Assembly (NCBI GenBank): GCA_021234155.1 | Contig: JAJEKV010000422.1 | Location: forward strand, 124,001 to 188,000 | Direction of reading: 5' to 3' | Length of the DNA: 64,000 bases | Source of the DNA: Isoetes taiwanensis | Taxonomy: Eukaryota > Streptophyta > Lycopodiopsida > Isoetales > Isoetaceae | Shown here: piece after piece, positions 17,813-61,400 of the stretch | Layout: each line of letters starts with the position of its first letter | How positions within the stretch are numbered: position 1 is the first letter of the stretch | Made by a program: the position numbers and the translations under genes | Notes under the pieces: model-generated | Told to the model about the DNA's origin: nothing | The model's input: only the letters and a program-made list of their open reading frames with translations | Databases searched by the model: none

Positions 17813-17883
<71 letters not shown>

Positions 17884-17934
17884 GAGACCTGATGGTCTCA
17901 TAGATGGAAAAATGAAAAGTCTTTATCTTTATCT

Positions 17935-17969
<35 letters not shown>
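17800..17969. repeat. (TC)n microsatellites
   Basis: There are about 80 bp of TC dinucleotides at 17802-17880 and a second run at about 17939-17969. They are separated by a hairpin (17881-17902) and a TTTATC repeat. The apparent RERERE protein on the minus strand is only translated microsatellite. Confidence 0.95.
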
Positions 17970-17972
<3 letters not shown>

Positions 17973-18062
17973 TTCCCACATGATCGCATTTTTTTATCTC
18001 TCGCCATATACGGCGAGAGATAATTTTTGTACGTATAGCTCCTCTCGAGCTCGAGAGGAGCT
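17881..18062. repeat. Cluster of three hairpins/palindromes
   Basis: 17881-17902 has a 9-bp stem (TATGAGACC/GGTCTCATA). 17995-18022 has an 11-bp stem around ATATAC. 18037-18062 is a perfect 26-bp palindrome built on CTCTCGAGCTCGAGAG. None resembles a bacterial-type terminator setting. They may be subterminal structures of a mobile element containing the trihelix fragment. Confidence 0.8.
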
Positions 18063-18194
18063 CTTCTCTCGGGCCTTAACAGCGGCCATTTTGCTGAGTT
18101 ACCGGAATTCGAAGGCGCCAAAATCCACCGGCCTGCCGGAATTCAATTTGTTGGCGCGAACCATTCTTGGAATCATGAAATGGCTTTCTTTCTT

Positions 18195-23900: not shown

Positions 23901-24480
23901 GCCCACTTCATCGTGATCTGCCTCATGAATTGTTGTTCAGAGTGGACCCATGTTCTTTCCTTTCAAGCTACGATTGTTAAATGGTCCAGAGCTGGCTCCC
24001 ATGTTCCCGGAGGCCCCTCTCTTTGCTCAATATCGTAGGTCTTACAAACAGGTTCCTCCATGCAAGCTCCTACTCCTAGCTTTGCTCCTTCTTTAATGGG
24101 TGTCTCTCATCCCCCCTGTGACTTTCTCTATGTCTATTCCAATCGCAGGTCCCATGCCTCAGTTGCTGGATCAACAGAGGCAAAGGCTAGATGAGATTCA
24201 GAGATCACAAGGGCAAGTTGAAGAGGCTTATGGGCAGCATATGGACATTGATTGTCATGGTGCCCATTCTCCACCCAAACATCCACATGCTCTTCGTCAA
24301 CCTCGAAGGTCAGCTAAGGGTTCCAACACCTTTACATCTCAGCTCTCCTCAGCACTGGCTCTACGTGATTCTGCCCCTCCTATTGCATATGGTCACTTTG
24401 CTCCACTTCAATGGGCTGATTTAGTGGAAGATAATATTGCCTTGCCGTAGTCCTATGATACAACTTCAAACTCTCATGAG
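20982..24480 (+). other. Unresolved decayed coding-like sequence, probably LINE-derived
   Basis: Short plus-strand frames at 20982-21275, 21286-21717, 23440-23679, 23707-23916 and 24100-24450 run in one direction with codon-like composition, but I recognise no domain. The last (116 codons) contains a Gln/Glu-rich helix and a His/Pro-rich tail. They lead to a LINE-like poly(A) end at 24689, which suggests they are parts of one degraded element. The continuity is broken by the LINE inserted at 22252-23407. Confidence 0.4.
22252..23407 (-). mobile_element. 5'-truncated LINE (L1 type) with 23-bp target duplication
   Basis: The poly(A) appears as a T run at about 22249-22260, so the element reads on the minus strand. 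The 23-bp direct repeat starting TGCAGGTCAATCTTTGAGCT is at 22229-22251 and 23408-23430. Coding remains (23362-22826 and 22949-22710, different frames) end in a zf-RVT motif (WCTGRIVVNALVSR, then CPCCGLHRETVEHCLVLCP). Only the last 1.1 kb is present, which is typical of target-primed reverse transcription that stopped early. Confidence 0.9.
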
Positions 24481-28841: not shown

Positions 28842-29282
28842 AAATATAATATCCCACTAACAAGGAAGCATGAGCTTTTAAGCCTAAGGGTACCTTCGCA
28901 CTCGCCGTTAAGTTAGGATTCCGTTAAGATTTTAACTGAATTTGCCTTCACACCACTAGTTAGGTTAGTTTTGCATTAATCTTTTTATTTAGCATTCCGT
29001 TAAGTTTTTTAATCTAAAAGTATTAACTTAAATTGGATTCACACCAGTTTCCATTAAGTTAGTAAATTAAACCCAAAGTTAACCCAAAATTAAAATTACA
29101 CTGAAAATTAAAGTGACCTTCGAAGGTCACTTTATTTTAACGGACGGAATTGTTGGCTTTCGTCGAAATGGCGAACAGACGAAACAGAGGTCTGCGCTCG
29201 GAACAGAGGGCGACCTCAAAATGCTGGAGTTCCCAGAGATCGAGGGTGTGTCGAGGCGGTCGCAGGTCTGGTTCTTTAGAGC

Positions 29283-37100: not shown

Positions 37101-38974
37101 TCAAAGTAGTTCCTTATAGACAACGTTCACCGTACTTTTTGTTGTGTTTTCGGGGGAGAGGAGTATCAATACATCTTGCCTGTTCCGCACACGAGTAAAG
37201 GCCATATACAATTGCCCATGTGCAAAGACGTTTGTGCGTAAATCAATGACAACCCGGTCTAACGTTAAACCCTGACAACTATTAAAAGTGGTCGAGTACG
37301 ATAGACGCAATGGTAATTGCCATCTATGGATAGTCCACGGACGATTTTCTGGTTGATAGAAGAAATCTGCCCTAGAGATTGGATATGTGTTTCCTTCTGG
37401 ATCACCAAGGAGTCTCACCATTACAAACTTTGCATGCATCGATTCAATCACGACCCTAGCATTCTTCACAAGGCCCTTCTCCATGTCTAATCGTTTCATC
37501 ACGTGGCATGTTGCCCCCACTTTAAGCCTAAGCTCATGGTTAGGAATCCCGGAATGCGTGAAATTGTTCAAGAAATCCGAAGTTGCATACGGATGCTCGT
37601 GGATAAGTTCGTCCTGCTCGGTTATATGATCGTGGCTGTAATAAGATTTATCCTGGCTGGGAACATCATCTAATATACGACCATTGAACTCGTCAACGTG
37701 TTTGTTGATCGGAGCAAGGGATATCTGCTTGTCACATTCCACTGGGTTGCGAAGGATATCCGGGGGATAAAGGAATTCTGCTGTATCTAAGATGTTTGTA
37801 GTTGTATTGAATAAATCCAACGACACCGTGGTTTCTTCCCAATTCTCCCCAAGGTTGTCAACAAACATCATTAGCTCAGGATCTCCTGCGTTTCGTATAG
37901 GCTGATGCAACCTCAACACACGGAATATTCTCCATAATGACGAGGATTTTATAGACGCACTGAATGTCGCAATCCTCCCCTCCTCCTGTCACAAATCGTC
38001 ACACCTCCCTTCACGACAGGGGCGACTTGCCTGAAATCACCAGCAGCTATGAAATGTTTTCCACCAAATGGAAGATCGTTTCTACACAACCGCTGAAGAA
38101 CATGATTCACGCTTTCTATAACGGCCTTATTGGCCATTGGGAACTCATCCCAAATAATGACTTTGGCCTCAACGATGAGTTGTGATACTCCTGAATCACA
38201 TTCTAGCATCGAGTGAAGTCTCACATTGTTTTCAACCACAGGGATTTGGAATAGGGAATGTGTTGTTCGTCCGCCTGCATACAATCGAGCTGCCAGAGCC
38301 GTTGTACCACATGGAAGGACTATGCCTCCATTGCTGTGTATGAGAAAGCATATGCAATTCAACAAAAATGTTTTTCCTGTACCTGCTTTTCCATCTACAA
38401 AGATAGGTTCGTTCGCTCGGGGAGATTCTAGCCATTGTCTTATGAAAGTGTATAATTCCAATTGGTTGTCATTCATCATACTTGACATTTGCAATGCAGA
38501 GTTCAGATATGATGCATGGTCAGAAAATTTCTCTAGCTCGTGCATCACATCCCTTCCGACACGGTGCTGCAGTTGGAGGCCAAATGCCACGATGTTAGTG
38601 CCATGCTGGACTAATATATTATTGACTAGATGAAGAGCTTCATTGAAGGCAATTACATCGTTGTTTGGATACTCGTCTAATAGATCAAGGCTCATAGGCA
38701 CTTGAAACTTAGTCCATAATTCAGCTGCTGGTCCTTGGTCGAGTAACAACATGGCAAACAGGAAACGCAATTGTGTAGGGCTCAACGATAAGGAAACTGC
38801 CTCCTCCATAACTAATGTTGCCTCATTGTGTGCTGCGAGCAAACCCGCTGCTTCTGCAGCCTGTTGATATGTCTCATATAGGTGATCATCAACGATCTTT
38901 AATTCATCCCATGATCTTGCAGGACGATGCAGCAGAATCTGTCTTAAATAAAATGCCTCGCCAACCTTAGGTAA
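37101..38974 (-). pseudogene. Helitron helicase domain (Pif1-like), copy A
   Basis: It reads in the same frame as the upstream Rep after an in-frame TAA (38975-38977). It shows GEAFYLRQILLHRPARSWDE, Walker A GKAGTGKTF, Walker B IIWDEFPMANK, and motif III GDFRQVAPVV. A frameshift near 37920-37950 follows. The 37919-37101 frame then continues with motif V (SCQGLTLDRVVIDLR) and motif VI (YMAFTRVRNR). Thus all the main SF1 helicase motifs of a Helitron RepHel are present. The helicase unwinds DNA during rolling-circle transposition. With one frameshift here and other lesions in Rep, the copy is recently dead, unless an intron or sequencing errors account for the breaks. Confidence 0.88.
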
Positions 38975-43546: not shown

Positions 43547-46273
43547 TTAATGAGCGTGCAGTCTCATAGGACTCAGGTAGTGCATCTCCACATGAACGAA
43601 AAACACCCGTCCTTTTTCTAACATCACGTGCTCATCGATCACACGGTCGAAGATAACACGTTGGTCGTGATATAAGCGGTCCACAGCTTCTTGCACCTCT
43701 ACCATGTCTTCTTGAAACACCTCATCCGGAAATATCATATATGGATCTATTGCACGCTCAGGAAGAATGAAATCAAACTTCCTTAAGGATCGCCCGACAG
43801 AGTTCATATGATCTTCAATGTCTAGAAGTGCCATGTCAAATAATTGATCACACATATTTACACTTTGATCTTCTGCAACCCTTCGTGCCTCATGCAAGAA
43901 GTCATCGATCATAGAAAGCTTGACTTCTTCCCACAGTTGTAGTGGATTCGATGGTTCACAATTTGAAAGGATCATGGCGAACATGTGCCGCAATTGTGGT
44001 GGCATGCCCCATGCTGCTGCTGCTTGAAGAGACTCAAGCCATTCTGTGTCATCGCGAAGCAACCCACGACGAATGCAAGCTTCTTTATATGTTGCACACA
44101 ACTCCCCGTCAAAAGAGCGTAAATCTTCAAAACTAATTGCATCTGTCACGCGGGTCAACAGGAGTCGTAAATAGTATCGCTCTCCTTTTGAAGGATTAAC
44201 AAAGTACATGCGTCCAATAGTGGGAAACTTCTGGGTATTCTCTCTGACCTTCCATTTTCAACTGGGTTGATCGTAGGTAAACTTTTTAGGAAAATCATGA
44301 TAGAGCAATTGAGTAGCCTCTCTAGCCTCTCTACCCCCAGATGCATTCATCTCGAAAAATGATGTCAATGTTGTTCCATTATTCTTGCTTCTTATACTGT
44401 CCATGCTCATACCTTCTCGATAGTATACATCTTGTTGCATTGGGAGATGCACAACCAATCTAGTGACATGAGGAAACTGTTGCTGTATTTCATATGAGAG
44501 GATTCTCCATGATGCCTCAGAAGTTGAGAAATAGCGTGCATTCAAGTATTGCTCAACCTCATCATGGTTTACGGTGGGTCTGCTGCTAGTAGATGCACCA
44601 TCACTCGCTGCTTCTAAGTTCACATTGATCATATCAGGCCCTTTGTAGACATATTTGTATAGATATTTAACGGCCTTTACGGCAGCACACACCTCAACAT
44701 TGATATGGCATTTGAAATACGATGTCAGCCACGGATTATATGGCACAACCCATCTGTTATCTAAATCTATATCCCCTTTTTTCACCTTTCGGCCATCATC
44801 CCTTCTTCGGTACAACGGATATCCGTCAACAACTGTCATTTCATCTGAAAATGCACGTGGATAATGCTTTGTACACTTACCATCTTGCATGCATGGACTA
44901 TTCGGATATCCAATACCACATGGCCCATGCATCATATTACGAGTGACTATCTCATACAATTCAGGATATAGATCTTTGTCTGGTATTTCAACACAAATTA
45001 TTTGATCAATCTCTTCGGCTGTGAAGGGCTTGTCTTCCTGATCCAATATAGTCAACAAATGTACATGTGGCAAGCCTCTCTTCTGAAACTCAATGACATA
45101 GACTTTTGTAATTATGCGGCCGAATATACCACGATTAGTTATCAGATCTATCAGCTCTTTTACCTTCATATGGAATACTCTAGCCACTAACTCTGATCGA
45201 TCACTTGGCGATTGGCCATATAATAATTCCCTCCTAATCTCTTCCCAATTTGCATTGGCAGTCATGGTTATAAAGAGGTCCGGCCTGCCATGTTCGCGAA
45301 CAATAGACATAGCATCGTGATATCGTTGGGTCATGTATCTCGGACCTCCCACATGTGAGGATAGTAACACAACTTTTTGGCCAATAGCACTTGCATCATC
45401 TCCTTCAAAGTCCATAATGCCCTGTAACATGTCTTTTCGAATGGTGTGTTGATTCAACACCACGAATTGCAGTCTTTCTTGTTCCATCTTCGAAAACATA
45501 TCACAAATGTATTCTTGAAACAATCGGCCAGCCATGTGAAGGGGAGATGTATGCCCATGACGCGTGAACAAATGATATATGTAGTACTCCATAATAGTTA
45601 CTTCCTTTGCGCCTCTCCGTCCATGAGGTATTTTAAAATGCCATCCATCTGTACCATAGGGAAGAAGTAGCACAAAGTGCAATGGATCATACGCTGAGTG
45701 ATATGCATCTATAAACTTCACGCCACCATCCTTAGAGTGTATAATAATGTCCCTCTGACCATCTTCGGGCTTATCATCGACAGGCATTAAGACAGCCACC
45801 TCATTTACAGTTGGAGCATTATATTGCCTCCTCACAGGATTTTGCACATTGCAAGAAGGTATACGCAAACGGATATCCATGGTTGGATGGATACGCATAA
45901 ACTGTGCCGCGCTCAAGAATATGTTAACAAATGGATTGTACTCTGTCATAAGGGCCTGCAACTGCACCACTATTTCTTGCCTCAATCCATCAAAAATGGA
46001 CATCCTGCGTTCAACTTGCATGTCCTCGCCATCCATGATGTATATCTGTGCAAATTTTGCATGCTCTTGTTGCCCTTGCGGTGGCAATAATGTTCCCATC
46101 TTATGGCACATGTGGCCATTGACCCTAAAAGTGTGAGCTCCACCAATAGCATTTGCCAACGCCTCATCAATTTTCACACCCACTGAGGCAAACGAAAAAA
46201 TATTATTGTACTTTCTAATGTTCGTGCGAAAGTGATCACCCAAACTATCTGTTCTCGTATATAGATCAAACAA
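43547..46273 (-). pseudogene. Helitron Rep, copy B, well preserved but lacking helicase
   Basis: The 671-codon frame 46273-44258 carries the whole Rep region: KYNNIFSFASVGVKIDE (N-terminal Helitron-like), GRPDLFITMTANANWEEI (about residues 329-346), the HUH motif LPHVHLL (His 403 and His 405), and the tyrosine motif KYLYKYVYKG (about 536-545). An in-frame TGA at 44258-44260 interrupts it. The same frame then continues to 43547 with GERYYLRLLL and SFEDLRSFDGEL, the linker to the helicase. The protein ends just where Walker A should start (VFFV, then unrelated residues). The helicase is therefore missing by deletion or replacement. Otherwise it is one of the best conserved reading frames in the window. 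Confidence 0.9.
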
Positions 46274-46343
46274 TGCCTGTGGTGGTTCACGGAATCAATG
46301 GCACCGTGACATTTCCATTAGCACATGCCCCACGCACTTCTTT

Positions 46344-49320: not shown

Positions 49321-51140
49321 GTACCATACTAGGATGGATTTAAGTCGATAGCAAGAAGACACTCCCGCCACCACCTCCGAGCAGTCGGATAGGATAAAGG
49401 ACGCAGAGAGGAAGGAGAGGAGCGAAAAAGAGAGCCGTCGGACGGAGGATCGAGGAGATGATAAGAACCGGTAGAAATTAGGCGCTGAAGGATAGTGACG
49501 GGGCATGCGAACGAATGCAGGCAAGCTAAAGAAATCGTATGACCACAGGCAAATTGGTCTCGTTTGGAGTGGCAGGGAGAGAAAGGAAAACAGGATCCGA
49601 AGAGTCTGGTTCAAGCGAGAAGGAAGCTATGCGTTGACGACGAGAACCAAAGAAATAGCAGAAGCGAAGCAGCCGGGGAGAAAGCTTAAGTCGAAGAAGA
49701 AGAGCCGGAGGCGCCTGCTATGGACGGTATCAGCTCAATGACCTGAAAAAGGAAAGGACATTAGAGAACAAAAACAATGAAAAGAAAAGCACGCCGCCAC
49801 GATGACGAATCTAAGGAAGCGCCCCGGCATGCCAACGAGAATGGCAACAAGGCGATGAAAAAATAAACCATGTTAATGCATACAATGCACAGATGAAATG
49901 AATGCAGATCACGTAGATAGTTGTCGTATGTGAATACAAATTACGGACCGAAGTCCGTGAATGTGGCTACGGACTGAAGTCCGTAAATGTGGCTATTATT
50001 CCTTCCGAACCTGTGGCCAAAATCTAATAACAAATAACTGAGATAATAAGGCAAAGAGGAAAAAACTTACGCATAGGAATGTAAAAATGCATAGACATAA
50101 AGAAGACAAAGTGCAACCCGACATATGTTGTCAAAAACAAAGTGCAATCGTGCATACGCGGGCGAGTGGGTTTTGTTTAGAAGGGCGAATTAGAATATCA
50201 ACGTGAGACAAAGAAAAAGAAAGACAACGAAGAAAAAATGAGGTTGACAACAAGAAGTCTAAAGCGAAGAAGGTTCATAAGGATGTGAAAAGGAGGGAAC
50301 AAGATGAGGAGAGTGAAAATGCTAAGGTCTGGGTCAGGGTAGCATAGGAGAAATGTGTGGTGATGTCAGAAGACAAATACCATATGCATAAATCCATGAA
50401 TAAAGACCCCAATAGGAAAACATACTGTGGCAAACGAGGGACGAGATTGAGAAAGAGAATGTAGACATACTAGCACCGAGCGAAAAGAAGGTCAAGAAGG
50501 AAACGGAGACTAAAGTTAATTCGAAGCACAACGAAAACGAAAAAATGAGGCGTAACTGCATAAACTAGAAGCCCAGCCGCCGCGAAACCTCCAGGTGTCG
50601 AGTCGGGCACGAAGCACGTAGCGAGGGTGAGACGAAGAGGAGCGCCAACGACCGAGCGCGAGAAGAATTGGAACATGTAGAAGGCACCCATGAGCGGTTA
50701 AAGAGAACAAGAACGTGCATAATGGTGAAGCGGCAAACTGCAAAACGACAAGCACTCAAAATGATGTGAGCGATTAGAAATGAGAAAAAATCAACAATTC
50801 ATGAAAGAAGAGAGGATAGCATCACCCAGGGGGTGGAAAAAAGCATCACCCAGCGGGTGGAAGAAAAAACATGATAAACAGAAATTTGTGTGCAAATATA
50901 GCTAAATAGCAAATATGATAAACACTCGTGTTCCTCCATTAAAATTTGCTCTTTCCTATTACCTAAACCTTCTATGCCCATAGATGGAATGACTTGAGCA
51001 TAACCCTTTGGGATTCCCATTCTCGTTTGACGTCATTATGGTAATTAGCTGCCAGATTGTAACCTTCAAAAGCTTCTTTAAAGTTCTTCCAGGTCAAAAT
51101 CTTTGGATCCATTCTTTTTCTTCCTTGTCACCATGTTCTT
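49321..51140. other. No firm gene; short repeats
   Basis: A 26-bp unit ACGGAC-GAAGTCCGT-AATGTGGCT is duplicated in tandem at about 49944-49995. The 49505-49741 plus frame (78 codons, basic) is unassigned. At 51000-51120 the minus strand has a Gag-like word (TWKNFKEAF) without further support. Confidence 0.4.
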
Positions 51141-51235
51141 GCCATGTCTGTCAGATATTTGTCCATGGCCTGCAGAGAATGCCTTAACCAGCCAGCACTC
51201 CAGGAGTACTACCTAGAGTTTTCGCTGGCTAAGGC

Positions 51236-51400
51236 ATTCTCGACTTGCGAGTCGAGAATGCAGGCATCAAGCCAACACTGGGATTCTCGACTCGCGAGTC
51301 GAGAATGCAGGCATCAAGCCAACACTGGGATTCTCGACTCGCGAGTCGAGAATGCAGGCATCAAGCCAACACTGGGATTCTCGACTCGCAAGTCGAGAAT
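51236..51400. repeat. 47-bp tandem array of 24-bp palindromes
   Basis: Four palindromes (51236-51259, 51283-51306, 51330-51353, 51377-51400), core TCTCGACTCGCGAGTCGAGA, are spaced exactly 47 bp apart. The identical 23-bp spacers start GCAGGCATCAAGCCAACACT. The first and last copies have one mismatch each in the palindrome. Identical spacers exclude a CRISPR array. Confidence 0.95.
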
Positions 51401-51724
51401 CCCTTAGCCATCCAATTCTCCTGTGCCTCTAGTCCTAGGTTTAGTCCCAGGTGCCTCTATCATGTCTGAGCCACTCTCCTTCGAACTATCTTCCTCGAAT
51501 ATTGCAAAGGGGAGTGGCCCGGACTGGGTGGAGGCCTCTGGGACTAACCACAGGGGGGATGCATTTGAACTGCATCCCTAAGGCCCTAGACCTAGCATTA
51601 TCTATACACAACTAGCATGCCTAATGAGGATTCGGATCGATGCTTCTAAACGAATGGAAGGCATTCCAAGCAAAATATATAGATGATGAAATCGTTTCAT
51701 GAAGTTGTTCGATTTATAGTTCCC

Positions 51725-51967
51725 TTGCTGAGCATCTCTCAATCTAGAGAGTATCTCGACGCTGAAATATGCTCAACAAGGAAACCATAAGTCGGGCGAG
51801 CTGTAGAACAGTTCCATGATCAAAACAGGGAGTTGTTCGCGTGTTACTCCGATCCATTGTTACCGTGCCCAGCATCTCTCAACCCAGAGAGTATATTTCA
51901 TCTCTCGACGCTGAAATATGCTGGACAAGGAAACAATAAATCCGCCGAGCTTTAGAGCAGTTCCATG
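51725..51967. repeat. Diverged tandem duplication (about 95-100 bp units)
   Basis: 51725-51819 and 51868-51967 share CAGCATCTCTCAA-CCAGAGAG..CGACGCTGAAATATGCT..ACAAGGAAAC and GAGCTGTAG/TTTAGAGCAGTTCCATG. The second unit has a small extra segment. Confidence 0.75.
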
Positions 51968-51969
51968 TT

Positions 51970-52260
51970 CTATACACATCTGGCATGTTCTACACACATA
52001 ATAAAACAGGAATCTCTGAAACTCCCCTCTTCTCGCAAGAACTCCTTGAGCCATTGTATCACAGATCCTGCAGCCTCACCGAGAGTCTTCGCTTCTTCTG
52101 TTGGCCTCATCAACAATGCATCCCCATCAAATACTTGTATCAAAGCGATTCTCGCGTATCCCTCTTCCATGGCGCTGCAGTGAAGTGTTCCCGTGTCTTG
52201 CAGCTCATATCCGCTTGCTACCTTAGCTCCGTGCACATCGATCAAATCAACTATTTGCAA
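51970..52260 (-). pseudogene. Fragment resembling a transposon-associated DUF8039-like domain
   Basis: A 96-codon frame begins MQIVDLIDVHGAKVASGYEL, contains YARIALIQVFDGDALLMRPT and TLGEAAGSVIQWLKEFL. This layout is like the short domain found in plant EnSpm/CACTA-associated proteins (VA-G, LH, YARV, LGDAVGS-I-WP). I infer this from pattern only. The remainder of such a protein is not seen next to it. Confidence 0.4.
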
Positions 52261-52645
52261 AAAGACACGCAGTTAGAAATAGACAGAGAGTAAGGCGCTG
52301 TTAGGAGCTTACATCGTCGTGGTGCCATCCGTGAACTCGCGAGCAATCGATCTCTGCCTCCGGTCGCTGTGCGCCTTGCTGCCGAACTAAGCACCTGGAA
52401 ATCTCCACTGTGCTCACTAAGCCCCTGGAAATGAATGAATTTGGAATCATTGTTTTAAATGGGCTAAAGCCGGCCGTCTTTGCACTTTATCCCGCTTTTT
52501 TTTCCTTGAATGATTGTGTGTCCTTAATTTCAAATTTAAGAAACGCCCGACCTTTTTTACGCGGCAGTCCTAAACCTTCCAAGGCGCGGAAGAGGCTCAA
52601 TTTACAAGGGAATCCGAGCAAGAAGAAGATACGGGGCATACTGAT

Positions 52646-53935
52646 ATGGCGACTCCATCGAAGAAGCCGGGCGCCGGAGCGAAGCGGGTTCAAGCGGCAC
52701 CAAGAAAAGAAAGACTGCTGACTCGTGTGAGCTCTCGGCTTTGTGTTCGGTCGGGATACCTTTTATCGATCCATCCTTCGTCTTGCAAAGATTCACTGCG
52801 GAGACGCTTAGTGATCACTGGCCGAACTCCGTTCTTCGTTATCGAGGGATTGGAGACAGAGCTACTTGATACACCAGCAGATTGTTGGTGGTATGTCGAA
52901 GTATCAACAAGGGAAGGAGAAAGATCTGTTTCTGTGGCAAAGGGATAAGAAGAGCTCCGGCGACAAGTACAAGAAGGTCGGTGTTGTACTCTCCGTCTCT
53001 GCGCCAGATTCGAAGCATCTTACATTGTATGTGGAAGACTGCCTGAAGGGTAAGTTCTACCACATGAAGAAGTTATCAGTATCTAACTACTCTCACTCTT
53101 CAATGAGCAAGTCGAAGGGGACCGACAAAAGGCCGGCGCCTTTAAATTGTCAGAACCTTGGGCAGAAGGATCTGGAAGGGATGAAGGAGGTCGGAACCCT
53201 GATATCCAGAGAGCTTGGAATGGAGATTTCCAGGGTGAGGGAGAAGATGTTCAACACCGGGAGCTTTACGTCTAGCGTGCTAAAGACTCTAAAGCACTCG
53301 GCAGTTACCATGGATGTTGTAGTTCAGAAAGAAAAAACTCCAGACAGAACTACAGATGAAGCAGATGAGAGTACACGGGAGGATTCAGATGCTGAAGATG
53401 AGGAAGATATAGTCGACTCCCAATTCTTGGATCCAGATGAGCAGATTAGGAAATCACAGAGAGGGGCCCAGAAGATGGAGCGGCTGGCTCAGTATTATCC
53501 ATTGGGGATATCACACACAAGCTATTCTTTGGACATCGAGGCGACTGAAGGTTTGGGCGGTGAGATGCCGTCTTGTTCAACCACAGGAAATTTAATCCAA
53601 CACACATGCTGGAGATTCTGAACTTGATGGTGCGGCATCCTGTTGCAGATCCAATGCCTGCGGATGTCATACCATTCGCCAGATCGACCGTGAGTTGTTC
53701 AAACCGAAGTCCGAGGATGACCCAAGGGAAAAGACGCCAGGTTTTGGGTTGTGGACGGCCAAAGATTCGGTGAGGGTACAAGTATTGCGTGACTTTAAAA
53801 GGAAGTGCCGCAGCGATCAAGGACGATATTCCAAACGAGAGTGCAGAGTTCTTTTCACGGACACGCCACCAACGGAGAGCTCGCCAAAGATTAGCCACCG
53901 CTGTAAATAATAGTAGCAAGTGCCGCCTACATAAG
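52646..53935 (+). pseudogene. 5' exon block of an unrecognised spliced gene
   Basis: It starts with ATG at 52646 (MATPSKKPGAGAKRVQAAPR). Coding-like frames follow in succession: 52646-52945, 52866-53621 (251 codons) and 53573-53773. The second contains DLFLWQRDKKSSGDKYKKVG and a strongly acidic DSDAEDEEDIVDSQFLDPDE. The 53789 frame runs to an apparent donor (AAG/GTAAAT) at 53935. Frames change at about 52900, 53560 and 53770, so either small introns are hidden or the gene is broken. No family recognised. The same strand and spacing link it to 54905-57408. Confidence 0.45.
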
Positions 53936-54904
53936 GTAAATTATCGTTTCGATTCGGGTTTCGCTCGCTGGAGTCGAGAAAGTTCCTCGAATCCTTTCTC
54001 GATTGTTTTCTTCGGGGTTTTCGACTCGGCGAAATGAAAGCCGAGGAACACAGAAATCGAAGATGCGGGGCTTTGAGCCGAGAAAACCCCAGAGAAGTAA
54101 AGAAAAGTAAAGATTGAAGGGACTTTCTCGACTCGTGAGTCGAGAAAGCTAGAGAATAAACGGGAAGAACAGTATGACGGGGCTTTCTCGACTCGCGGGT
54201 CGAGAAAGTCCCTTCATACTTCGACTTTCCTGTGCTCCTCTGACTTTCTCGACTCGCGAGTCGAGATACCCCAGGGCAATAGAGAGAACATTAGAGATTA
54301 ATGGTTGACGAGTGAAAGCATCGAGCCTTCCCATCCTTTCTTCCCTCGCCTCTTCGGGCAATGTCGCTTAGTTTATATCCTAAGTTGCATCGTTCGAAGA
54401 GGTGGGGCAAGCAAGGATTTGGGAATGAGCGGTGCTTTCACTCTGGCCTCACTCTCCTATGTTCTCTCCTCTCCTGTGGGTATTCTCGACTCGCGAGTCG
54501 AGAAAGTCCCTTCGATCTTCTCCACTCCTGTGCTTCTCTGATTTTCCCGACTCGCGAGTCGAGAAACTCCATGGTAATAGAGAAAACATTAGAGATTAAT
54601 GGTTGAAGAGTGAAAGCATCGAGCCTTCCCAATCTTTCTTTCCCCACCTCTTCGGGCAATGTCGCTTAGTTTATATCCTAAGTTGCATCGTTCGAAGAGG
54701 CGTGAAAGCAAAGATTTGGGAATGCACGATGCTTTCGCTCTGGCCTTGACTCTCCTATGTTTTCTCCTCTCCTGTGGTTATTCTCGACTCGTGAGTCGAG
54801 AAACCCCCTGCATCCTTCTATTTATTTTTTCCTTCGGGTGTTAGGAGATACTTTCATGCTCTGACATTGTGACATTTACTGAATGCAGCCCGTATCCTGA
54901 CCAG
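53936..54904 (+). other. Apparent intron carrying six palindromes and a 300-bp duplication
   Basis: GTAAAT at 53936 and CCTGACCAG at 54904 would join the 53789 frame in phase with IIHARQQWKALGCPQ (AG at 54888 is an alternative acceptor). Within it, palindromes with core TCTCGACTCGCGAGTCGAGA or one mismatch lie at 54126-54145, 54186-54205, 54247-54266, 54484-54503, 54545-54564 and 54782-54801. A unit of about 300 bp (54245-54540 and 54545-54800) is tandemly duplicated, including AATGTCGCTTAGTTTATATC. Confidence 0.6.
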
Positions 54905-56418
54905 ATCATACACGCTCGGCAACAGTGGAAAGCATTGGGTTGTCCTCAGCGTCCTAAAGGAAACAGGGCCCCCTCCGATGAAGACGAGAAGAAGAAGAGA
55001 ACACCAAGAAAGGGCAGGGAATCTCTATCAGACCAATATGACCTCATTCTTAGCACTGAGGCGGTCTGGGAGAAATGGACTGAAATATGGGCTCAATGGA
55101 CAAGAGGCAAGCTGAAGGACAACAATGGAGAATTGCCAACCAGGCCGGACCCAAAGTTGTTCGACAAGCAATTCATGAAAAGGATACAGGGCCTGACGGA
55201 CAAGGAAACGCTTGATCTACAGGGCAGAATCCTGGATGGAACAATCCTGCTAAGGAAAAGTAGAAGTCCAAAAATGCAGGACGCAAAGGATTACGCCACA
55301 ATCCTAAAGAGACGGCGTGCATTGGAAGAAGGCATCACAGAGTTTTGCAATGTTGCCTCCAATGCATGCCATGATTTTGAGTATTATAAGAAGAAGGCTG
55401 CGCTTGATGAGGAAGACATGAAGGAGTTGAACCGTCTATGTCAACCCTACATCAACACCAAGCTAAAGCGTAACGTCAAAACCATCCCCTTCCCTGAACG
55501 TGCTATGGCAATTCTGAAGAGGAAGCTTGGATTCGGGGTGGTCCCATTTAAGACAGCTCCCCTCCATTCCTGGTAACCTTGGGACACAAGGGGTTTGGTG
55601 GTCTGGAACTGGCACCTGGGCCCGTGGCACTATTTGCCATGAATATGATCGAAGACCCCACCCTATTTTATGAAAAAAGCCGACATTGAGCAAAGGGTAC
55701 AAGGCGGTTCCGGACATGACCGAATTTGGATACTGGGTTTCCTTATCTTTTGCATGCGGGCAATCGACAACCTTTGTGGCACAATGGGCAGCTGATATTA
55801 ACTTCACCAAAGAAGATCTTATATTCCATATACTTAACCTGGAACATGAGTGTAGACTTGGCACAAGGCACCAAGTTTTGCCAATGTAGTTTTGGTTTTG
55901 GTTTCAAGATCGGTACTGCAGACTGACAAGTGGTGGTCTAGCGAACACCACTATCTCGACAAGTTCATGATTTCTCAAGAGCAGATGGAACCCTGGAAAG
56001 GCGGCAGATTTATGGAGGATGTGCCATCGATGGACAAAGTCAGCACTGATGGTGCAACATGTCCAATACATAAAATTCCTATCCGGCCAAGAGTTATCAA
56101 GTACTTCATAACCCAACTTGGTCGAGGAAGATCATATTGTATGCGAGTGGTACATGAATGGCCCATTCTCTCGGGGGCTATCTTTGATGGAATGAAACCA
56201 ATATCCATGGTTGGAAATAAGGACATGGTTGAAACCATTCGGTCATACCTGGACCTGCTTCATGAGCATTTCAAAGGGAGGAAGACAAATGGAAGCAGTA
56301 AGGACGATGATGACGAAGACAAACTTGACAGCCAGGGAGAGAAAGGTGACGGAGACGAGAATGTCCAAGGTTTAGACGACAATGCTGCCGAACTAATTCT
56401 GGAGAGTCTGAGATTGAG
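54905..56418 (+). pseudogene. Middle exon block of the same unrecognised gene
   Basis: The frame 54869-55576 includes DEDEKKKRTPRKGRESLSDQ, LSTEAVWEKWTEIWAQWTRG and KRIQGLTDKETLDLQG. After a break it continues in 55686-55889 (GYKAVPDMTEFGYWVSLSF). It then continues in 55892-56418 (DKWWSSEHHYLDKFMISQEQ to an acidic DDDDEDKLDSQGEKGDGDEN tail) and reaches a canonical donor at 56419. At least two frame changes occur. There is no domain I know. The charged, helical character suggests a nuclear protein. Confidence 0.45.
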
Positions 56419-56548
56419 GTGAGTTCACTTTGCTCTCGGAGTGTTTCTCGACTCGCGAGTCGAGAAACCCTCCGAGTATTTAGCTTTTTTTTTTCTCGAC
56501 TCGTGAGTCGAGAAAACGTTTCCTATCTGACGTCTTTCATCATTCCAG
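56419..56548 (+). other. 130-bp intron containing two palindromes
   Basis: Donor GTGAGTTCAC at 56419 and acceptor CATTCCAG at 56548 join LRL-R to DIDRNESGSL in phase (the split AG/G codon remakes Arg). The palindromes at 56446-56465 and 56494-56513 (the second with one mismatch) fill much of the intron. This is the best-supported splice in the window. Confidence 0.7.
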
Positions 56549-57408
56549 GGACATCGATCGCAACGAATCGGGATCATTGACAATATCACACGAATCTGCT
56601 GGCAGTTCACATCATGTGGAGGATACTGGACCCAAGAAAGGCAGTCAAGAGCAAGACAGTGCGGGCAGCAAGAAAGGACCTGAAAAAAATAATGATCCCG
56701 CATATGGATCCCGATCTATCAGAAATTTGGTCAGAGCCAAACTCTAACTGGGATCCAGCGGGTCCCACCAAGCTTATAATATTTGACATCAATGGAGTAT
56801 TAGCTGCAATATACCACGATAAAGACGTCCCTGAGCTTAACACCTCACAGATCCCGACAATAACGGGGTCTAAAATCGTGTATCCTCGACCTAAAGCAAA
56901 GGAGATTATTGAGTGGTGCGTGGAACGGGGATTCCAAGTGGCCATATGGTCTTGTATGGCAAAGAAAAATATTATCAATGTCCTTGGTGTTCTCGGCCTT
57001 CCAGTTTTGATGTTCAAGTTTGTTTGGGGAAACGAACGGGTCGAGCATGTGTCAGGCCTCGATCCAGCCATCACAAAGGGGAAGCCTATTATGGTGAAAA
57101 GGCTGGACAGGGTTTATGAAGCATACTAGGACTTTAACAAACACAACACGCTGATCATAGACGACTCCGCCTACAAGTGCTATCATAACTCGCACAATAC
57201 AATCATTGCCAAGAGTTATTGACCAGAAGAGTATGAAACGGATAGGTGGTTGTCTTTCAATCTCGTTCCTGTCTTGGCGGAATCCCTGTTTGCCATACTT
57301 GTGGCCGATGTGATTAGGAACTATCCGAACCTCAAGGAGGTCGATCCAGAGAGCAGCGCGATCATGAAAGCTATGGACGACAAATATTTTGGTGAACAAG
57401 AAGAGTGA
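56549..57408 (+). pseudogene. FCP1/NIF-like (HAD) phosphatase domain, broken
   Basis: After the in-phase start DIDRNESGSLTISHESAGSS the frame is lost. The frame 56614-57129 then gives TKLIIFDINGVLAAIY, the plant-type DxNG variant of the HAD motif I (second Asp replaced by Asn), VYPRPKAKEIIEWCVERGFQ, and AIWSCMAKKN (motif II region). After a stop at about 57127 it continues with TLIIDDSAYKCYHNSHNT (the family's IDDSP-like motif III). A second stop (SY, stop, PEEYE) follows before the final stop at 57408. FCP1-like proteins dephosphorylate RNA polymerase II tails or act in membrane biogenesis. The Asn at motif I means catalytic ability is uncertain, and two nonsense codons plus a frameshift make this copy doubtful. 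Confidence 0.6.
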
Positions 57409-57513
57409 CCTCTGCTTTCAGATAGTCGAATTGTGTGAATCTTGTAAAGAAACGTGAAGAAATGTACTATATTTTGTAATGAATATACTTGTACATTGAG
57501 TTTTCGCTGGCTT

Positions 57514-57744
57514 TCTCGACTCGCGAGTCGAGAAAGGCATGCTTGTCCTATTGATGAAACCATTTGTATGTTTGTTTGTGTGACTGGATGCGGCCATATT
57601 CTGTAATGATAATGGTTGTACATTGGGTTTCCTGGGCTTTTCTCGACTTGCGAGTCGAGAAAGGCACTGCTTGTCTCGTTGACGTCTCGTTGAGAATGGT
57701 TGTACTTTGACTCTTCTGGGCCTTTCTCGACTCGCGAGACGAGA
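57514..57744 (+). repeat. Three further palindromes in 84-127 bp repeats after the phosphatase domain
   Basis: The palindromes at 57514-57533, 57641-57660 and 57725-57744 sit in repeated context (GTACATTG-GTTT...CTGG-CTTTCTCG ... GAGAAAGGCACTGCTTGTC). The last two each carry a single mismatch. This lies between the stop at 57408 and the last exon, in a 3' intron or intergenic position. Confidence 0.85.
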
Positions 57745-57879
57745 AAGGCACTACTTGCCACGTGATTGGATGCAGTTATATGGAATGAATGTTCTCTATT
57801 GTATTTTGAATTCACCATTCTTTTCTTCGTTTTGACTAATGATACCGTAATTGTTAATCATACTCTCCTTGCTCCAGGT

Positions 57880-58440
57880 GGTTCAGGCACTAATCCCGCA
57901 GCAGCACAGATCCCGTTCAGGCATCACAGAGACCGCTCAAGGCGGCACATATCCCGCTCAAGGCGGCAGAGATACCGTTCTGGCACAGATCCCGCTCACG
58001 CTACACTCTTACCCGGCCTTTGGGATAAGGTTGCTCGTGAATGCAGAGGCCATGCACACGCTCGGGATAAAGAAGAGGGGAAGAAATTTGAGACAGTCCA
58101 GAAAGCTCAAAGCATCTTGCAAGCATTGCATAACATCCACAGAGGTTGGGGAAGGAGCATATTCGATGAAAAGCTGCGGGAGGAGAGTGGAGAAGTCGGG
58201 TGGACAGGTCAGCCGGTGGCTCCCGAGGCGCCTCCTCGTGAGGCATTCCACACTCTTCAGGTTGCCCCCAAGGCTTACAGACGGCATGAAGAAGCCCCGC
58301 AAGTTAATCCCCTAAGGTGGACCACCTACCACGATGATGTAACTGTAGTGACAGCAAGACCGCCATGGTCTCTGCGTCCGATGTAAAATACGTTGTACCT
58401 ATTCAATTTATTAATAAAAATTCTTTTTCAACTAGAACTT
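57880..58440 (+). CDS. Putative terminal exon with Arg/His-rich repeats and poly(A) signal
   Basis: It follows the acceptor-like CTTGCTCCAG at about 57878 and stays open to the stop at 58384-58386. It begins with repeats of a unit GGCACATATCCCGCTCAA (reading RSRR/HRDRSRRH). The rest includes WGRSIFDEKLREESGEVGW and ends WTTYHDDVTVVTARPPWSLR. AATAAA at 58413 could end the transcript. No family recognised. Whether it is joined to the phosphatase exons or is its own gene is unclear. Confidence 0.4.
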
Positions 58441-61400
58441 CCTCTTTACTGAATCTTTAATGAATTTTGTTTGAGTTGTATTGTTCTTGTTCTCGATTCG
58501 CTATCCGAGAAAACGGGGAGAAAGCTCGAACCCACACTAAGAGACAAATATTCGAATTATGGACAGTTTTCGAGTCGGAGCTCTACTTTTTATGTAAGAT
58601 AACAGAGTTCCGAAAAAAAGTGGGAATAGAATGAGACCCACTTTAATTAAATACGACGCTAATTCTGATAGAAATTAGGAAGCATTTTGAAGAAGTTTTG
58701 TATGAAGTATAAGTAGCAGAGTAGTAGGATGTTTAAGAAAGCCATGACTAGTCTGTAGAAGTTGGGTGATCCATTCTGGATAGAACAATAGGGATTTTGG
58801 GTGAGGGAAAATGCATGTGCTATCAGATATGGCAACCTAGTTTCACATATTGCAAGCAAGAGCGGATCATCCTCCCAGATTTCTTTGCCATAGCCCTGTT
58901 TGCGCACATGCTCTCATAAAGCCCCAATGATTCTGCAGCCCAACAAACCTGCAGATTAAGTCGGTTGTGGCAATCTGGCAGAAAAATGATAAATAGATCT
59001 AAATAATGAAAATAGAAAAAAACACGGCCTCATCTTGGTATTTCCATCTGAGTTTTCTTCTTAAAATATTTCTCTGCTTTTTTATGTGTTTGCAGGTAGT
59101 TACATATCCACAATGATAAATCCGAAAGCAAAAGAAAGCCAGGTTCTTCTATCTTTTTTTTTTATGCAATTGCATCTGAGCTTTTCATGATCTAAAGCAT
59201 GGGAAGAGAGGCCATATCCTGTATTCCTGAACTGTGCAGGCAAACTATCTCTAGAATCGGACTTTACTGAATCCATGGCTGCCCGAGTCCGTGCTACATC
59301 CGAGACACCTTTGCAGAATAACTATGCTACAGGCTGCAAGAGACATGGCAAAACATAAGACAGAAATGACCAACACAGTAATTCAAGCCTTCCAGCCCCT
59401 TTCAACAAAACCCATTCATAACCCTGAGCAAATGGCATGTTTCTACCTGCTACAAGCAGGCCTGAATATGTCGTCCTCCATAGCCAACCATGGTTATCCT
59501 TGTTCCTATGGTCCTAGTTCTAGCCTTTTCATCTGGGTAAAATAGTTTAGATTTTCAAAAATTTCAATTGTTTTTTCAAATTCCCAGTCTAGGACTTCTG
59601 CTCATTATTCGATGGATTTCCATGCTTAATCTAGTTCGTTTGAATGTCTGAGAGAAATTCTCACATTCTGAAGATATTGGCCATTCACTCTAGGTTTTAA
59701 GTTTTTTATGCTTGAATAGTCTTTGGTTTTGGGCAAACTGAAGTAGCCCAATTTCAAGCATTACAGTGGTCTATGCAATTTAGCTGAAAAGCCCTTGTTG
59801 CGCAGAGCCGGAATTGGCGAATTTGAAGCTGATTTCAAACTGCTCAATTGATCAGATGAAATGGGAAGGGATAAAAAGGCAGAAAAAGGACTTTAAACCA
59901 TGTTAAAACCTACCTGTGATTGGCCAATTTTTCCTTAAACAAGCCTTGTAGTAGGGTCATATTTTATTGCTGGGAGGCGGCTATATTCACAGATTGAATG
60001 GCGAATAGCTACACTAATGCAAACATATGCGTAGCTAGAGGGACATTTGGTCGGCCATGAATTTTGATTCACATCCACTATAAAAGTGTGAATCTGTTAA
60101 AACTAATGGAAAGTTAGAAGAATACATAATTTTAGTTTAGCATGTGGCGCCTTCCCATAAGCACAAGGTGATAAGATATTGTGGAACAACAAAAACTTTG
60201 AATGCACAAGGTGATAAGAATTTGTGGATAGATAATGCACAAGGTGGTAAGAACTTAAAAAAAAATTACGGTGCGAATTACATATTTAGCTAGAGAAAAT
60301 CCTAATTGTTGAAGAGAGAATCATTGTGAATAGAATCGTACTTTAGATTTACATAATGCAGTTTTTAACGACCTGGGTTTCTCACTATTGGCTACGACCT
60401 GGGTTTCTCACTATCGGCTTCTTTTGCCTACTCGAATGCCCTGCAAAACCCACGTTATCTGAGTCAAAATCCAAGTGAAGAGAAGAGAAATGCAAGGCCG
60501 ACGCGATAAATTTCTTATATGCATGTGTCATATTTGACTAGAAAAAATATTTATCAAGCATCAAATGCTTTAAAAAAGGCATGCAAGCCAAGGAAGTGAC
60601 ATGCAAATGCATATATAGATGCAAAAAGCACTTTAAGCATAACATAATGTAAAATCTTATACAAGGGGGCCTTGGAACTTAGTCAACGCATTTATGTAGC
60701 CATGTTATAAGCATAAAATAAAATATTATGCCTATACAAGGGAACATTTATATTGCCATGAGCTTAGGCACTTCAAGCTTAGTCATATTTGTGATATTTG
60801 ATCCAAAAAAGAATCAATGAATAGATATATACAATAAATAAATAAAAAATAGCGAAAATGCAGGGTTGGGATGAAGGTTAGGGTGGGGATGGACAAAAAA
60901 AATGAACGAAATAAATTGTCTTGATAAATCATTGCTTGTCGCGTCTGAGCTTGGCTATTTATCTCCAAAAGTATGGCAACCACTTTTTCATCTAAACATT
61001 TATGGGATTATACCAGTGGGTTCTTATGCTTAGGATAACAAATGTGTTTGCAAAGAAAATGCCATTTTTCCAAATGCCTTGTGGATAATTTTATAGAAAT
61101 TTTGATTGGATGAACACCTTGCCATTCTGCAATATGCACTTCACTATTATGGATGTCAAACAAGAGTATCTCACTCTGAACTGTTGAGCGTCAAATCCCA
61201 TAGATGCAATATAAAGTGGTTGGGGGAAGGGCCCAACCGAGCAATGTAGTGTGGTGTGTGGTCACATGTCTAGTTGGACCACAACTAGATTCTTGCGGGC
61301 AAACTATAACTTGAAGACTTATCCCTCAAAGGAGCTTGGCTCTGTATTTTTGACAACAATTGGAAACTACCTGCCAAGCTGCCTGATCTGTTGCTTGATA

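Follow-up and report, generated by a model that had tools for sequence, protein, structure and literature searches.

CACTA/En-Spm transposons carry subterminal repeats of the site for TnpA. Here, we describe a short CpG-rich palindrome of the lycophyte Isoetes taiwanensis that is almost certainly an internal part of a large, high-copy DNA transposon with terminal inverted repeats (TIRs), and that may be a binding site for a protein encoded by that transposon. The DNA analyzed, referred to below as the window, is a 64,000 nt stretch of contig JAJEKV010000422.1 (positions 124,001 to 188,000, forward strand), in which an earlier note had drawn attention to fifteen copies of the palindrome in the introns and flanks of one gene with a phosphatase domain. 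Among described DNA transposons, CACTA elements have CACTA/CACTG ends and a 3-bp target site duplication (TSD), and Sola elements, recorded in the moss Physcomitrella, have 4-bp TSDs and TIRs of 11-1124 bp, according to the part of PMC10741241 that deals with them. Palindromes have also been described as selfish elements of the organelle DNA of Volvox carteri, with nuclear copies that are inert by the account in part of PMC2670323, and fungal introner-like elements or symmetrical stwintrons are described in part of PMC8469720 as whole introns appearing at new gene positions.

The 20-mer TCTCGACTCGCGAGTCGAGA was found 15 times between 51238 and 57744 (six exact copies and nine with one mismatch, which bears out the earlier count), and the same 15 sites were the only ones in the whole window when up to three mismatches were allowed. 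In 100 dinucleotide-preserving shuffles, chance gave 0.01 copies on average and never more than one. The 20-mer is preceded by T in 15/15 and followed by A in 14/15 window copies, and the 22-bp TTCTCGACTCGCGAGTCGAGAA is a better statement of the conserved core. For the later 11 copies the start positions given previously were exact, while those of the first four were two bases early, the 20-mer lying at 51238, 51285, 51332 and 51379. Across the window's own assembly (1,658,258,908 bases in 1110 contigs), the genome-wide count that had been proposed as a check revealed a huge excess, with 10,606 sites at up to two mismatches compared to three for a reversed control. The exact 20-mer was absent from IMG/VR and GTDB contigs (a search from which records of the own genome were possibly excluded), and literature text searches with the 22-, 18- and 14-base forms of the palindrome gave no match, only the 10-base centre occurring there, in seven papers.

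To place these sites, 24 loci around exact palindromes were sampled from the front of the matches listed, leaving out contigs C60, C68, C73 and C76. For 23 of the 24, the surrounding DNA was sequence of one DNA transposon family (19 loci with a terminal repeat; L013, L016, L018 and L022 with other element sequence), and the remaining locus, L021, had only the array unit described below. The earlier note had raised the idea of an independently dispersing palindrome, to be given up if the 20-mer turned out to belong to one larger repeat family; since the sampled loci do belong to one such family, the idea fails for them.

Blocks at 72-88% identity aligned with window 51175-58657 in eight loci (L005, L011, L013, L014, L016, L017, L022 and L023), and others had only the last part in common with the window copy, up to 58657. 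Of 18 right-end matches, most lost similarity at one fixed sequence, with ~1.1 kb of further similarity beyond it in L008 and L012. Leftward extension of three copies revealed the mirror of this right-end sequence, defining a TIR of 24 bp, AAGTCGTATTTAATTAAAGTGGGA, with its inverse at the opposite end. All six elements with both ends in hand are flanked by perfect 4-bp TSDs: four complete small elements, L008 (4069 bp, AATG), L019 (4242 bp, GTTT), L020 (3664 bp, TAAA) and L024 (3930 bp, TTAT), and two full-size elements, L005+L025 (13,490 bp, ATTA) and L014+L026 (12,281 bp, AATT). A first guess of a Helitron/Helentron, made from the right-end hairpin and a T-T junction, was dropped on the left TIR and the TSDs; the Helitron combination of TC...CTRR ends with neither TIR nor TSD was not what we found. 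Block alignments show the window copy (51175..58659, + strand) to be left-truncated, with only the right TIR, which terminal repeat comparison placed at 58636..58659 (- strand) in a degraded form with three differences from TCCCACTTTAATTAAATACGACTT. Neither a left TIR nor the gene for the DUF7869 protein (see below) was found in the window copy, and a search for an element with TIR and TSD inside the window alone gave nothing convincing. We also noted that L004 has two right ends tail to tail at 475-593, ~70 bp apart, with the terminal bases altered in both.

The element resembles Sola, as described in that part of PMC10741241, in its 4-bp TSD, its TIR length, a size within the reported limits and a seed-free plant host, a likeness of TSD, TIR and size by description alone, with the transposase outside the comparison; it differs from the same description in its second gene with a NIF domain and in the dispersed internal palindrome. 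With CACTA/En-Spm it shares large elements and a short motif repeated near the ends and putatively bound by an element protein. Unlike CACTA, however, it ends in AAGTCG... and has a 4-bp TSD, and its sites are dyads that lie further inward and also occur in introns. The Volvox carteri palindromes are likewise short and multiplied through introns and intergenic DNA, some of them nested there (as far as the relevant part of PMC2670323 goes), whereas those studied here are parts of a nuclear transposon. Fungal introner-like elements and symmetrical stwintrons, in the part of PMC8469720 devoted to them, are similar in that introns contain symmetrical sequences with a palindrome, but unlike those the intron pair of palindromes seen here is common to one site of one transposon gene. 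We regard both the Volvox and the fungal case as resemblances only.

The transposon has two genes. The left 3.3 kb, 92-94.5% identical among three copies, encodes leftward pieces with DUF7869 (PF25273, E 1.7e-38) that are frame-broken in the three copies examined. By its position near the left end, the DUF7869 gene is the probable transposase; no solved relative of the protein was found at E up to 1, and DUF7869 was not mentioned among the matches listed in a literature text search. The second gene, read rightward, encodes a NIF domain (PF03031; 56770..57279, + strand, profile match at E 4.2e-10 with X read at two stops). Its protein gave 150 scored matches in the own genome, the window's included, among 4902 first-look candidates, with many showing open frames of 250-350 aa. 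The phosphatase domain reported earlier is therefore present as a NIF/FCP1-like domain, but the "one gene" is a high-copy transposon gene, and a host phosphatase gene was rejected on the 150 matches. In a comparison over 130 codons, the copies of the window, L005, L011 and L017, whose frames are largely open (L011 with one stop), had dN/dS of 0.23-0.44 among themselves, and values rose to as much as 0.89 when the frame-broken copies (L014, L022 and L023) were compared; L013, whose match is short, was left out. FCP1-type phosphatases have a DxDxT motif, and the NIF domain has FDINGVL in its place (56782-56802), so the domain may be without the full catalytic acid. A literature search on an FCP1/phosphatase-domain gene captured by a transposon in a lycophyte returned no paper matching most of the terms.

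In the window, where the left end of the element is absent, the NIF gene is broken by two in-frame stops and by frame changes. From open reading frames and alignment to copies, its exon 1 lies at approximately 52600..53935 (frame-disrupted, borders by eye), followed on the + strand by intron 1 (53936..54889), exon 2 (54890..56418, frame-disrupted, from open reading frames), intron 2 (56419..56548) and exon 3 (56549..57406), which carries the NIF/FCP1-like domain and the stops at 57127 and 57221. Motif scanning and folding place six palindromes in intron 1 (54126, 54186, 54247, 54484, 54545 and 54782), partly in a 298-bp tandem duplication, and copy alignment and folding show a pair in intron 2 (56446 and 56494) in a position that is shared from copy to copy. 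The splice-like borders, 53936/54889 and 56419/56548, were read by eye and agree with the suggestion that copies lie in apparent introns; for intron 2 there is the additional support of donor and acceptor sequences conserved in other copies.

Motif scanning together with repeat or right-end comparison also identified four palindromes (51238, 51285, 51332 and 51379) at 51236..51400, upstream of the NIF gene, and a right-subterminal cluster at 57514..57744 (57514, 57641 and 57725), 0.9-1.15 kb from the right end. The upstream group proved to be the strict 47-bp array noted before (tandem array, 51238-51398), and the variants of its first and last copies are mutual reverse complements. Together with the 298-bp tandem duplication at 54185-54818 and a ~84-127 bp repeat at 57514-57744, this makes three local duplications, and because copy number partly reflects local tandem duplication, the 15 copies are not fifteen independent events. 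A degenerate relative noted before near 58495 was located at 58491..58510, 169 bp from the right end; this half-degenerate palindrome has four mismatches and is recurrent at the element's right end, with a counterpart (up to five mismatches) in 14/18 right ends. At 4464-5007 of L018 there is a ~260 bp repeat, each unit of which has one palindrome and a stretch resembling window 51443-51583. Further long hairpins lie upstream of the NIF gene at 51436-51550 and 51710-51976, the stretches at 51710 and 51850 being 77% alike with, by eye, some pairing kept by double changes; stretches related to these are found in L005, L013, L014, L016, L018 and L022.

The palindromes occupy particular parts of the element. 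In nine loci we counted 43 of them (up to four mismatches), and interpolation assigned 35 to positions on the window map, leaving eight unplaced. The placed sites fell in intron 1 (12), intron 2 (8), the 3´/right-subterminal region (11) and the upstream region (4), and none in exons, so that a check of distribution suggested earlier found them outside exons wherever they could be placed (0/35 exonic). Upstream, in introns 1 and 2 and right-subterminally, they are at matching places in diverged copies. At the right ends, palindromes lie 640-1305 bp from the end in 17/18 and the half-degenerate form 166-190 bp from the end in 14/18. At the left ends of six elements of the small, array-bearing class, where sites were not the basis of locus choice, a palindrome-like site was present at +511 to +590 in 6/6; these left-end palindromes include TCTCGCCTAGCTAGGCGAGA and TCTCGCCTCACGAGGCGAGA, in which C-G has replaced an A-T pair on either side. 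Palindrome-like sites in the four complete small elements (3.7-4.2 kb) are confined to three zones, +511 to +590, -674 to -1305 and, except in L020, -166 to -187. These elements share the transposon's ends and palindromes without a recognizable copy of either gene, having no open frame >221 aa and, among the matches listed, matching the stretches with the two genes in palindromes and short scraps only.

Conservation was examined most closely for intron 2, using the 301 bases upstream of the NIF domain from 40 further copies together with the window and seven earlier loci (48 sequences). The 40 further copies had two or more palindromes in 25 cases, one in 11 and none in four (up to four edits). 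For the alignment 42 of the 48 were used, as the donor motif was not recognized in L031, L036, L038, L039, L043 and L046. The two palindromes had between-clade identities of 0.88 and 0.86, compared to 0.86 in 28 neighboring exon columns, 0.73-0.78 in other intron parts and 0.46 in the spacer that separates them, with the caveat that the alignment is partly anchored by the palindromes, which favors them. Because the palindromes match exon-level conservation, far above the spacer, the intron-2 pair is ancestral and constrained, and its presence in the same place across diverged copies indicates inheritance there rather than new insertion. Over 180 palindrome copies with up to three changes, some related by descent, CpG transitions made up 84/142 substitutions; the central CGCG accounted for 65 of them and the outer sites for 19. 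The half-sites are thus better preserved than the centre, a pattern that a dimer site would give.

We therefore favor, with a probability of roughly 0.55 as a joint explanation, that the palindromes are internal cis elements, dyad sites for a protein encoded by the transposon. Of the possibilities raised in the earlier note, a protein-binding dyad fits best, as a candidate role that we infer from position, conservation and the half-site pattern; for the binding role taken by itself, the odds are about even. Each 22-bp palindrome would be bound by a dimer, either of the NIF-domain protein or of the probable transposase with DUF7869. Arrays close to the element ends would help to bring in the transposition machinery, and sites upstream of the element's own gene and in its introns would place that gene under regulation by the same protein, with tandem duplication inside the element multiplying sites locally. 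If this is correct, a motif with 10,606 sites in a lycophyte genome is, as sampled, control circuitry of a single transposon family, one that carries a phosphatase-like gene. The system would also come with built-in controls: the scored gene matches number at least 150, and there are small derivatives in which ends and palindromes persist without either gene. A caution that follows is that what looks like a "gene with strange introns" in such a genome may turn out to be a transposon, and introns rich in palindromes are not necessarily introners.

Several observations weigh against dyad binding sites. The right-end positions are biased because loci were chosen for an exact palindrome. In the first 1.5 kb of three full-size left ends, no palindrome-like site (up to six mismatches) is present, and the full-size L005+L025 has no palindrome (up to four mismatches) within 2.1 kb of its right end, which counts against a universal end site. 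At 0.17-1.3 kb from the ends, the sites are further in than is typical of subterminal transposase sites. Within the local duplications, divergence of the palindromes was only modestly lower than that of their flanks (7/110 compared to 54/400, p 0.046). Changes on both sides of the dyad were complementary in 14 cases and not in three at up to four mismatches (26 and 16 at up to six), a pattern partly expected from transitions and shared ancestry, and the symmetry of the palindrome fits a DNA or RNA hairpin as well.

The main rival to binding, which we nonetheless consider unlikely, is that the palindromes act as RNA hairpins or DNA cruciforms, with stems in introns and 3´ regions affecting splicing, polyadenylation or silencing of transposon transcripts. 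Folding was strong for intron 1 (z -25), for the upstream array (z -14.8) and for intron 2 (z -7.6), whose two palindromes pair in the minimum free energy fold, but strong folding follows from any palindrome by construction. Dyad-keeping double changes do occur, and pairs of reverse-complementary variants were seen in the window array (51238/51379), in intron 2 of L005 and, bar one further difference, in intron 2 of L011. Against this, when the 40 further stretches were read by eye, the partner palindrome did not mirror most of the intron-2 variants, and small elements without either gene still keep sites. General covariation between the two intron-2 copies was considered and rejected: it was seen in L005 and nearly in L011, and was absent by eye in most other stretches. 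MicroRNA precursors were rejected as well, with no Rfam match at gathering score in the window and nine sub-threshold miRNA-family matches in 50800-59000.

It is rather improbable that the palindromes are passive, functionless tandem-repeat relics carried along by the transposon. The origin of many copies by local tandem duplication and the small conservation difference within the duplications are what such relics would give, but across clades the palindromes match neighboring exon columns in conservation and greatly exceed the spacer, and sites are found near both ends of small elements for which, ends and palindromes aside, no alignment with the window copy was seen.

FCP1-like proteins are related to phosphatases whose target is the tail of RNA polymerase II. 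By analogy with phage nut/put antitermination, the palindromes could conceivably be polymerase-modifying sites recruiting the element's NIF/FCP1-like protein, such that polymerase passes both introns and terminators of the element; this is a distant prospect, whether the sites were to act as transcribed hairpins or as DNA dyads. Binding by a host regulator or chromatin factor, for which the transposon acquired sites, is very improbable: a dyad with conserved half-sites, located upstream and in the introns of the element's gene, would suit such a factor, but the sampled sites are in one transposon family (adjoining host genes were not searched for). The least credible explanation is self-spreading of the palindrome as an independent miniature mobile element or introner, since, despite its very high copy number and one possible but ambiguous empty site in the window (51216-51237 compared to the flanks of 57514, E 5.7e-5), which together with target duplications had been proposed for checking, 23/24 sampled loci are in one transposon family, the intron-2 positions are common to diverged copies, the flanks of the 15 window copies show by eye no consistent target duplication around single palindromes, no further site with up to three mismatches exists in the window, and the supposed introner is, throughout the copies examined, a single intron of one transposon gene, other genes being outside the survey. 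Insertion into the centres of older palindromes was also rejected, with clearly extended arms in only two copies (54186 and 56446); a nested-insertion test (plain pairs) gave p 0.002-0.28 by arm length for the 15 copies and 0.03-0.23 on sets of 8 and 7.

Elsewhere in the window, a 34-bp near-perfect palindrome around TGACCTTCGAAGGTCA is present at 29105-29138, with one weaker match at 24296 (up to four mismatches) and no array. Stretches encoding Helitron protein, apparently unrelated to the palindrome element, lie on the - strand at 37101-37985 and 44258-46291 (Pif1 2B domain, E 1.2e-8; Helitron_like_N, E 7.2e-54). Finally, three different strong palindromes or hairpins (TCTCTCTATGAGACC..., TTATCTCTCGCC... 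and AGCTCCTCTCGAGCTCGAGAGGAGCT) are found in <200 bp at 17875-18066, beside CT microsatellites.

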